From Acinetobacter lanii (GTDB lineage: Bacteria > Pseudomonadota > Gammaproteobacteria > Pseudomonadales > Moraxellaceae), in NCBI RefSeq assembly GCF_011578285.1, contig NZ_CP049916.1, positions 2,790,001 to 2,854,000 on the forward strand: DNA of 64,000 nucleotides, in the 5' to 3' direction. Below are positions 9,489-12,476 of this stretch, piece by piece; the stretch's first letter is position 1; every line of letters begins with the position of its first letter. The translations under genes and the position numbers were made by a program. The notes beneath the pieces are model-generated. The model saw nothing but the letters and a program-made list of their open reading frames with translations. It was not told the origin of the DNA and did not search any database.

Positions 9489-10040
9489 TTACTTTTTCTT
9501 TTTAGGACCAAGTAACATACCCATTTGACGACCTTCCATTTTAGGCGCTTGTTCGATGACACCGAACTCAGCTACGTCAGCTTCAATTTTTTGCAATTGA
9601 GCCAAACCTAACTGTTGATGCGCCATTTCACGACCACGGAAACGTAGAGTAATTTTAACTTTGTTCCCATCTTCTAAGAAACGAAGAATGGCACGCAGCT
9701 TGATGTTGTAATCACCAACGTCTGTACCAGGACGTAACTTAATTTCTTTCACCTGAACTTGATGCTGCTTTTTCTTCGCATCTTTTTGCTTTTGCTTCAG
9801 ATCAAATAAATGTTTGTTAAAATCCATGATCTTACAAACAGGTGGCTCTGCATTAGCAACGATCTCAACAAGATCAAGCTCAACTTCTTCCGCAGCACGC
9901 AATGCTTCAGCTAAAGAAACGATGCCCTTTTGCTCTCCTTCAGCACCAACGAGACGTACTTCTTTTGCACGGATCTCGTCATTTAATGCAGGACGATTGC
10001 TTTTAGCACCTTGTTGTTGGTTACGGTCAGGCTGTTTAAT
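9489..10040 (-). CDS. infC: Translation initiation factor IF-3, ATT start codon
   Basis: This 183-residue IF-3 keeps 30S subunits apart from 50S and proofreads the start codon. The first in-frame ATG-type start would cut off the conserved N-domain ([28 protein letters not shown]). The homologous reading begins at ATT (10038-10040), giving [16 protein letters not shown], with GGAG a few nt upstream. The C-domain ([31 protein letters not shown]) is intact. The ATT start is the known autoregulatory device of infC: IF-3 discriminates against its own AUU codon. The start lies 5 nt past the thrS stop, so the ribosome site overlaps the end of thrS and translational coupling is likely. Confidence 0.96.
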
Positions 10041-10045
10041 CTTTC

Positions 10046-11968
10046 TTACTCCACAATATACCGGCCGCGTTCGGCTACGGCTGCTTTCACTAAGTCAACG
10101 AAGGCATCAATTGACATAGTACCTAAATTTGTTCCAGAGCGAGTACGTACATTCACAGTACCTTCCTCTACTTCTCGGTCCCCAAGTACCAATAAGTAAG
10201 GAATACGCTCTAAAGTACGCTCACGAATCTTAAAGCCGATTTTCTCATTTCTCAAGTCTGAAATCGCACGAATGCCATTTTCTTTGAGTTTAGCAACCAC
10301 GTGATCACACGCTTCGGCTTGAGAATCGGTAATATTCATGACGCATGCTTGGATTGGAGCCAACCATGGTGGCATGAATCCCGCGTAATGTTCAATAAGT
10401 ATACCAATAAAACGTTCAAAACTACCAAGAATTGCACGATGTAACATAACTGGATGATCACGATCATTATCTTCAGTCACATACGAGGCATCTAAACGCA
10501 ACGGTAAGTTGAAGTCACACTGAATTGTACCGCACTGCCAGATACGGCCTAAGCAGTCTTTCAATGAAAATTCAATTTTTGGACCGTAGAATGCGCCTTC
10601 ACCGGGTTGTAAATCCCAAGATAAGCCAGCAGCATCCAAAGCATCCGCCAAAGATTTTTCCGCCACATCCCAAAGTTTGTCATCACCGACACGTTTTTCA
10701 GGACGTGTTGATAATTTCATTTGCACTTCTTCAAAGCCAAAGTCTTTATATACATCAAGCGTTAACTTGATGAAATCTGCAACTTCCTGACCAATTTGTT
10801 CAGTGGTACAGAAAATGTGTGCATCATCTTGGGTAAAGCCACGAACACGCATAATGCCGTGTAAAGAACCCGATGGTTCGTTACGGTGACATGAACCAAA
10901 TTCCGCTAAACGAATTGGCAGGTCACGGTAAGATTTCAAGCCTTGGTTAAAGACTTGTACGTGACATGGGCAGTTCATTGGTTTTACTGCATAGTTACGA
11001 CTCTCAGAATGCGTCGTAAACATGTTTTCAGCATAGTTTGCTGCGTGACCTGATTTTTCCCAAAGCGAGAAATCCACAATTTGTGGGGTTTTAATCTCTT
11101 GGTAACCATTGTCTTGCTGAACTTTACGCATGTACTGTTCAAGCACTTGGTAAATGGTCCAACCATTGGCATGCCAGAACACCATACCCGGTGCTTCTTC
11201 TTGCATATGGAATAGATCTAATGCTTTACCAATTTTACGATGGTCACGTTTTTCCGCTTCTTCAATACGTTTGATATAAGCCGCAAGCTGTTTTTTATCT
11301 GCCCACGCTGTACCATAAATACGTTGAAGTTGTTCGTTTTTCGCATCACCACGCCAGTAAGCGCCTGACATTTTGGTCAATTTGAATGCTTTTAAGAATT
11401 TTGTGTTCGGTACGTGCGGACCACGGCACATATCCAAATAGTCTTGATGGTAGTACAAGCCCATTTGGGTTTCTTCAGGCATGTCTGCGATCAAGCGAAG
11501 TTTATAATCTTCACCACGTTTGGTGAATTCTGCAATCACTTCATCACGTGGGGTCATTTTCTTAATGACATCGTAATCTTGATCGATGAGCTTTTTCATA
11601 CGCTCTTCGATGGCAGCCATATCATCTGGTGTAAATGGCTTTTCACTGAAGATATCGTAATAGAAACCATCTTCAATGACTGGACCAATCACCATCTTTG
11701 CTTCTGGGAACAATTGCTTGACAGCATGACCCACCAAGTGTGCGCAAGAGTGACGAATAATCTCTACGCCTTCTTCATCTTTAGGCGTAATGATTTGCAG
11801 CGTCGCATCTTCAGTGATCAAGTCAGATGCATCGACCAAGCGATCGTTTACACGACCTGCAACGGTGTTTTTTGCAAGACCTGGACCAATGCTCAGCGCA
11901 ACGTCCATAACAGATACGGCGTGATCAAACTGCTTTTGATCGCCATTCGGCAAAGTAATAATTGGCAT
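10046..11968 (-). CDS. thrS: Threonyl-tRNA synthetase
   Basis: The 640-residue class II synthetase has full length. It comprises an N-terminal TGS domain (1-62), the editing domain with [10 protein letters not shown] around residue 75 (removes mischarged Ser), and the catalytic core. The core has the zinc-binding MNCPCHV and motif 2 ([30 protein letters not shown]). The C-terminal anticodon-binding domain starts near [11 protein letters not shown]. The ATG at 11966-11968 has AAGGA upstream. It is the first gene of thrS-infC. Its leader contains a hairpin that copies a tRNA-Thr anticodon arm, pointing to autogenous translational repression as in E. coli. Confidence 0.98.
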
Positions 11969-11987
11969 AAAAAATCCTTAAGGAGTG

Positions 11988-12008
11988 ATGCCCCGTACCA
12001 TAGGGCAT
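11988..12008 (-). promoter_or_regulatory. tRNA-Thr anticodon-arm mimic in the thrS leader (operator)
   Basis: On the minus strand, ATGCCCT-ATGGTAC-GGGGCAT forms a 7-bp stem (six Watson-Crick pairs plus a closing T-G) around a 7-nt loop. Read as an anticodon loop, A32-U33-G34-G35-U36-A37-C38 has the invariant U33, the tRNA-Thr anticodon GGU and a purine at 37. It lies about 20 nt upstream of the start codon, next to the Shine-Dalgarno. Upstream, a GAGG-TTTT-CCTC hairpin (12029-12040) is enclosed by a CACCG/CGGTG stem (12011-12015 with 12053-12057). E. coli ThrRS is known to bind a tRNA-like operator placed in this way. Confidence 0.7.
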
Positions 12009-12476
12009 TTCACCGCGAGATTATGATCGAGGAAAACCTCAAAAGATAAAATCGGTGCAATAAATCTAAGTGCGAAAATTTTACACCCTTAATGATTTTT
12101 TATAAACCATTCCATAGGATTAAACACAAAACAGTGCTATTTTTTTTCGTTTAGCTTTCTAATCCTGCTGTTTTTTAAATATTGTCGCTGTTATTTTCAT
12201 TTTTAAGCCCATCTTGGCATGGATTCATCGATGCTTTAAACACTCAATTGCATATTGCATATTCAAATTGAACCTATTTTTAACGCAAAGTGCTGTCATT
12301 CAATTCAAAGCAGAGCAATCTTTCATCGATAAAAGCAAATTTTAAATTTTTCAATGTAATGCTTATCACTTTTCAAATAAGCACAATTTTTCGACTAAAG
12401 GATTAAAGCATTTACTCTAAAAAGCACATATCTTTTGGGTAGGAATTATAAAAATGATGAACACGGAGTTAGAATC
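12009..12476. other. Gene-free divergent spacer between thrS and the acyl-CoA synthetase
   Basis: AT-rich with no credible open reading frame. It must hold both divergent promoters and the upstream part of the thrS leader. I see no clear -35/-10 pair, terminator or known RNA family here. Confidence 0.6.

Follow-up and report, generated by a model that had tools for sequence, protein, structure and literature searches.

The thrS leader in the window (the whole stretch of DNA analysed, 64 kb in length) is very probably a one-arm variant of the translational operator of E. coli threonyl-tRNA synthetase (ThrRS). Its hairpin would be the homologue of operator domain 2 and would serve autogenous repression upon ThrRS binding. 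As established in E. coli, the thrS operator is a textbook example of tRNA mimicry. Our reading is based on conservation, covariation, position, homology and the presence of one site per genome. An E. coli-type ThrRS anticodon mimic in the thrS leader is strongly supported, since homology, position, covariation and an invariant G35-U36 in the loop all argue for it.

The hairpin consists of the strands AUGCCCU (12008-12002) and GGGGCAU (11994-11988), which enclose the loop AUGGUAC (12001-11995). All seven stem pairs form, with U-G as the closing pair. When numbered as in a tRNA, the loop features U33 at 12000, G34 at 11999, G35 at 11998, U36 at 11997 and A37 at 11996. Between the end of the stem and the thrS AUG (11968) there are 19 nt on the minus strand, which bears out the 7-bp stem about 20 nt before the start codon described in an earlier, sequence-only reading of this DNA. 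The 3' flank CACUCC, followed by the Shine-Dalgarno-like (SD-like) sequence, directly adjoins the stem. Perfect hairpins of this 7/7/7 format with a.UGGUA. loop were found twice in total on the two strands of the window (the thrS-leader hairpin and one other), compared to 0.05 expected on each strand from 20 mononucleotide shuffles.

Table 1. Features of the thrS region in the window
Feature	Positions	Strand	Basis
Anticodon-arm mimic, 7-bp stem and 7-nt loop AUGGUAC	11988..12008	minus	sequence, R1/R2 matches, E. coli K-12 layout
SD-like UUAAGGA	11975..11981	minus	sequence; E. coli SD UAAGGA (PMC3858243, excerpt)
Outer pairs (A12010-U11984, G12011-C11983) beyond an asymmetric internal loop of A12009 and CAC 11987-11985	11983..12011	minus	covariation
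Upstream stem-loop CACCG (12057-12053)/CGGUG (12015-12011), inner GAGG-UUUU-CCUC (12040-12029), U-rich internal strand	12011..12057	minus	sequence
Promoter-like TTTATA-17-TAAAAT	12078..12106	minus	pattern; transcript start predicted near 12071
thrS, 640-aa threonyl-tRNA synthetase with N-terminal domains	10046..11968	minus	protein alignment
infC with AUU as start codon, 5 nt downstream of the thrS stop	9489..10040	minus	sequence

The predicted thrS transcript folds into both leader hairpins, with a z value of -1.46 and with 18 of 200 shuffles equally stable. With an energy this close to background, stability says little by itself, and the case for the hairpins is made by conservation. In the minimal fold of 46 nt of the window sequence by itself, a slipped GUGA/UCAC lower stem is preferred over the outer pairs. 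This lower stem cannot be formed in most other lineages, and a slipped register is possible for the window. Folds of the transcript and of the 46 nt also predict a mini-hairpin, UCC-UUAA-GGA, over the thrS SD. The stretch 11989-11975, AUCACUCCUUAAGGA, resembles what we take to be the 3' tail of 16S rRNA, joined to the SD.

In E. coli K-12, the thrS leader reads GUGAUCU-UUCGUGU-GGGUCAC, followed by CACUGCAAAUAAGGAUAUAAA and the AUG. Domain 2 of the E. coli operator, presumably the RNA of structure entry 1KOG, shares with the window a 7-bp stem with a 7-nt NGU loop (UUCGUGU in E. coli, AUGGUAC in the window), an outer A-U pair with an internal loop containing CAC (U/CAC in E. coli) and the 3' flank CACU, followed by the SD UAAGGA and with infC as the next gene. 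The spacing to the AUG is 19 nt in the window and 21 nt in E. coli. The two differ in the anticodon-like bases (GGU and A37 in the window, CGU and G37 in E. coli) and in the stem bases, and the outer helix of the window is short, compared to about six possible pairs in E. coli.

In the accessible portions of the literature, the E. coli operator is described as having two anticodon-like hairpins; their resemblance to the anticodon arm of tRNA-Thr allows ThrRS to bind, which blocks the 30S subunit, and control passes to MetRS when the operator anticodon is swapped to that of methionine (PMC7373986, PMC3858243, PMC9976931, PMC11088916). A U-rich landing site for 30S/S1 is described in an excerpt of one of these sources (PMC3858243). 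Judged by such excerpts, the window and the four-domain E. coli operator have in common an anticodon-like arm beside the SD, an upstream stem-loop and a U-rich stretch. However, the upstream stem-loop of the window lacks a conserved anticodon-like loop, and the two-arm architecture was not found here. The yeast AspRS mRNA anticodon mimic, in the part of the source available (PMC7373986), is another case of a synthetase that binds its own mRNA at a tRNA-like element; enzyme, organism and structure are different, which makes it an analogy only.

To assess conservation, 211 thrS leaders were read, from 50 genus, 40 family, 60 order and 60 class genomes and from E. coli. The genus leaders stem from 50 of 99 genomes (the 30 nearest relatives and 20 others that are mostly divergent), the order was mostly sampled with one genome per family and the class sample favours closer ThrRS; given this sampling, the fractions below are not unbiased prevalences. 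Hairpins chosen by stem and CACU, with the loop left free, were obtained for 50/50 genus, 25/40 family, 47/60 order and 26/60 class leaders and for E. coli (1/1). All of these 149 hairpins, chosen without using the loop, carry GU at positions 35-36 (loop positions 4-5), compared to 0 in the antisense control. When GU and the spacing to CACU were used instead and the stem was left free, 153 of the 211 leaders were chosen (50 genus, 26 family, 49 order, 27 class and E. coli), 149 of which have at least 6 of the 7 stem pairs. Among shuffled leaders from outside the genus, 2.8% of 8050 matched this second choice.

The strict combination of stem and CACU was lacking in 15/40 family, 13/60 order and 34/60 class leaders. 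By this criterion, the element is absent from many leaders of the family, order and class, and thrS can therefore do without it. Three family leaders (L071, L072 and L084) yielded no match to our models even with filters off, and the element was probably lost in them. In leaders L061-L063, from a single genus within the family, the element lies farther upstream: 99-128 nt separate its beginning from the aligned thrS start, compared to about 40 nt otherwise. For some family rows, this distance refers to the first aligned position of the protein match and not to an established start codon. An exact pattern scan returned at least 115 stretches, and among the matches listed are Pseudomonas, Stutzerimonas, Aeromonas, Cellvibrio, Zooshikella, Zhongshania, Sedimenticola and Phytobacter (by pattern only). 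Pattern matches also occurred in assemblies titled Polyangiaceae (L335) and Verrucomicrobiaceae (L367); the title of the latter may be wrong.

Covariation was analysed in alignment A1 (118 distinct rows) and in A2 (110 rows), from which eight rows of A1 were left out: L058, L131, L141 and L171 with 2-4 stem pairs and the near-duplicates L004, L015, L049 and L050. A4 is the subset of A2 from the order, the class and E. coli (71 rows). Standard pairs account for 94.1% of the stem cells in A1, compared to 29-53% when the alignment was slid, and the covariation score of 0.563 is above the values for shuffled (0.227) and slid (at most 0.121) controls. For A2, 95.7% of the cells are paired and the score is 0.562. 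The outer N-N' pair, which was used in no selection, is CG in 70, GC in 27, UG in 13, UA in 2 and AU in 1 of the 118 rows (other combinations in 5). The A-U pair beside it is found in 115/118 rows and, being nearly invariant, says little about covariation. The stem and the outer pair are kept by compensatory change and show strong covariation.

Two models were used for searches. R1 was built from A2, so that the window and many of the later matches are among its training rows, while R2 was built from rows of the order, the class and E. coli only and contains no member of the window's family. R1 matches 97 of the 99 same-genus genomes, which are all 97 with a full-length thrS; the best match in each of them ends 11-14 nt upstream of the thrS start (compared by eye). 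In the two genomes missed, thrS is cut at a contig end (G029) or has no match in the assembly (G030). With strict filters, the window's own genome features a single R1 match at E ≤ 1, and, as lower bounds under the same filters, at least 130/370 genomes of a class draw and at least 70/299 genomes of a phylum draw have a match. Of the latter, 69 belong to the class; the lone match outside it lies within gltB, in an assembly (L312) whose contamination is 9%. All 60 fetched loci, made up of the 30 top matches from either draw and including the window, precede thrS, which begins at most about 35 nt away in 59 of them and about 150 nt away in L220.

R2 ranked the thrS-leader site first in the 64-kb window, albeit with a weak score (18.7 bits, E 0.0018 by a rough calibration), ahead of a next match with 13.0 bits. 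Out of 57 leaders from the genus and the family, it recovered 30, namely 14/17 of the genus (10.2-18.1 bits) and 16/40 of the family, which indicates that the window's family is a diverged branch. Two off-site matches among the 57 leaders scored at about 11 bits; the weakest true R2 matches are therefore near noise. A wider ThrRS regulon was considered and rejected, with 8 of 14 weak second matches in the genus retrieved (L303-L310). L303-L306 represent the same stretch of the ilvE coding region, without the loop (the ORF was read for L304 only), and L307-L310 were seen as DNA only. A further second weak match (L311) belongs to a genome of the class.

These results bear on the possibility that ThrRS plays no part and that the hairpin serves, for instance, as a ribosome stand-by site or for mRNA stability, its anticodon-like loop being incidental. 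Any stable hairpin 5' of the SD can act in this way, and the stem and flanks are nearly invariant within the genus. However, such a role leaves unaccounted for the GU at loop positions 4-5 in 149/149 hairpins chosen without the loop and the position of 60/60 best model matches before thrS, and we regard it as quite improbable.

The loop was compared to the threonine tRNAs of the genome in a survey of 13 loci, out of 30 fetched and 84 matches. The anticodon arm of tRNA-Thr(GGU) is CUCCC-UUGGUAA-GGGAG, and two tRNA-Thr(UGU) loci carry ACUGA-CUUGUAA-UCAGU. The leader loop is identical to that of tRNA-Thr(GGU) at positions 33-37 (UGGUA) only, while positions 32 and 38 and the stem differ; the near-perfect copy of this arm claimed earlier was therefore overstated. 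Position 34 is free, with 65 GGU, 45 CGU, 25 UGU and 14 AGU among the 149 hairpins. Within the 50 genus leaders, GGU occurs in 25, UGU in 18, CGU in 6 and AGU in 1, U33 is present in 47, A37 in 42 and G37 in 8. These numbers rule out GGU as a conserved feature. The comparison of leaders suggested in the sequence-only reading thus revealed the expected compensatory changes in the stem, but not an invariant UGGUA loop. Likewise, its proposal that E. coli-type ThrRS control was kept appears sound on the grounds of homology, position, covariation and the invariant G35-U36, except for GGU as the conserved decoy, in whose place NGU is conserved. All threonine anticodons end in GU, and a free position 34 is hence expected for recognition by ThrRS. 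The conserved mimic would be NGU, usually followed by a purine, which seems to suit ThrRS recognition better than a GGU decoy.

A loop carrying the threonine anticodon may also be expected of a tRNA-sensing leader (T-box) or a threonine attenuator. The terminator-bearing thrS leaders of Bacillus subtilis are T-boxes. Such leaders with a terminator are described in the available part of one source (PMC3997798). In the window, no terminator-like site was detected on the minus strand between 9400 and 12460, an anticodon mimic would bind the enzyme rather than pair with the tRNA, and no Rfam model matched at gathering score, which refutes this type of control as far as Rfam models reach. We consider it extremely unlikely. 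The Rfam 15 search of the 64-kb window yielded no match at gathering score at all; for E. coli and five relatives, tRNA genes alone passed, with sub-threshold overlaps of the leader on the opposite strand. The hairpins would represent a conserved operator set across many Gammaproteobacteria with no Rfam 15 match. A literature search, in which subscription journals were thinly covered, found no comparative study of the thrS operator, and older comparisons may exist.

For the ThrRS operator, we infer the following mechanism. The hairpin would imitate the tRNA-Thr anticodon arm via G35-U36, with any base at 34 and usually a purine at 37. Free ThrRS would bind it 19 nt from the AUG, beside the SD, keeping the 30S subunit off and the SD blocked, and tRNA-Thr would relieve repression by competing for ThrRS. 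The upstream stem-loop would probably contribute a U-rich 30S/S1 landing strand or a spacer. The natural variation found (a free base at N34, single or double arms, arms in displaced positions and losses) could be used to test recognition by ThrRS and the need of the dimer for two arms.

The upstream stem-loop had been described earlier as GAGG-UUUU-CCUC inside CACCG/CGGUG and is indeed present (Table 1). Its CRCCG partner is found in 46/50 genus leaders. The outer helix hardly varies, and no covariation beyond shuffles was observed in 30 distinct rows (0.062 compared to 0.061). An anticodon-like frame with GU occurs in the upstream loop of six of the 50 genus leaders, all with the one loop GCUGUGC. 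Based on the UUUU loop of the window, the lack of covariation and this low number, the stem-loop was rejected as a conserved second mimic. Its U-rich strand is invariant in sequence in the genus and would fit a 30S/S1 landing site as in E. coli, going by an excerpt of PMC3858243. The sequence AUCUYGCGGUGA (12021-12010 in the window), located 5' of the hairpin, is present in 50/50 genus leaders, even in those without the CACCG partner.

The test for second arms covered 70 nt, and its power is limited, as the known second arm of E. coli lies partly outside and was missed. Within this range, an E. coli-like second anticodon arm was neither found upstream in the window nor conserved in the genus. 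Upstream 5/7/5 arms carry GU in 6/21 cases in the genus, all with the same loop, and in 16/64 cases across all groups, compared to 55/894 (6%) in shuffles; second anticodon-like arms thus do occur elsewhere above chance. Two full tandem copies of the anticodon-arm element were observed in the thrS leaders L315, L099 and L101 (the latter by sequence) and at 1803-1867 of L377, a putative thrS leader. Tentatively, and with somewhat less than even confidence, the ancestral thrS operator of Gammaproteobacteria may have been a single arm with an asymmetric Y/CAC internal loop. The second arm of E. coli and the tandem copies (L315, L377, L099 and L101) would then be separate later gains, and the upstream hairpin of the window's genus would not be a mimic. 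If this holds true, one arm per mRNA would suffice for control.

The thrS transcript probably starts near 12071, since the promoter-like sequence ends at 12078 and the GTGTAAAAT box (12086-12078) is kept in 46/50 genus leaders, at -108 to -125. The number of promoter-like sites in the region (6) is not above that expected from shuffles (7.1). A fold of 173 nt (z -4.12) predicts that DNA around 12109-12086 pairs with the SD region in a long-range helix, which would hide the SD and form a switch. However, the 5' strand of this helix is located at the GTGTAAAAT box or upstream of it and is thus probably untranscribed DNA, and the helix is absent from the fold begun at the predicted transcript start. 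Such a switch is very improbable and was rejected.

Residues 1-634 of the encoded ThrRS align to 1-635 of 1qf6_A, presumably the E. coli enzyme, over its full length. As stated in the accessible part of PMC7373986, the N-terminal part of E. coli ThrRS is needed for repression. Three genus genomes (L316-L318) feature a second ThrRS, which is 46-47% identical and whose leader has no match to the element. Control by the leader may plausibly also affect infC, which starts immediately after thrS (Table 1). An AUU start codon is also used by E. coli infC. In 12 assemblies of genus g9, thrS is located 451-935 bases from the contig start, which suggests a long repeat just upstream.
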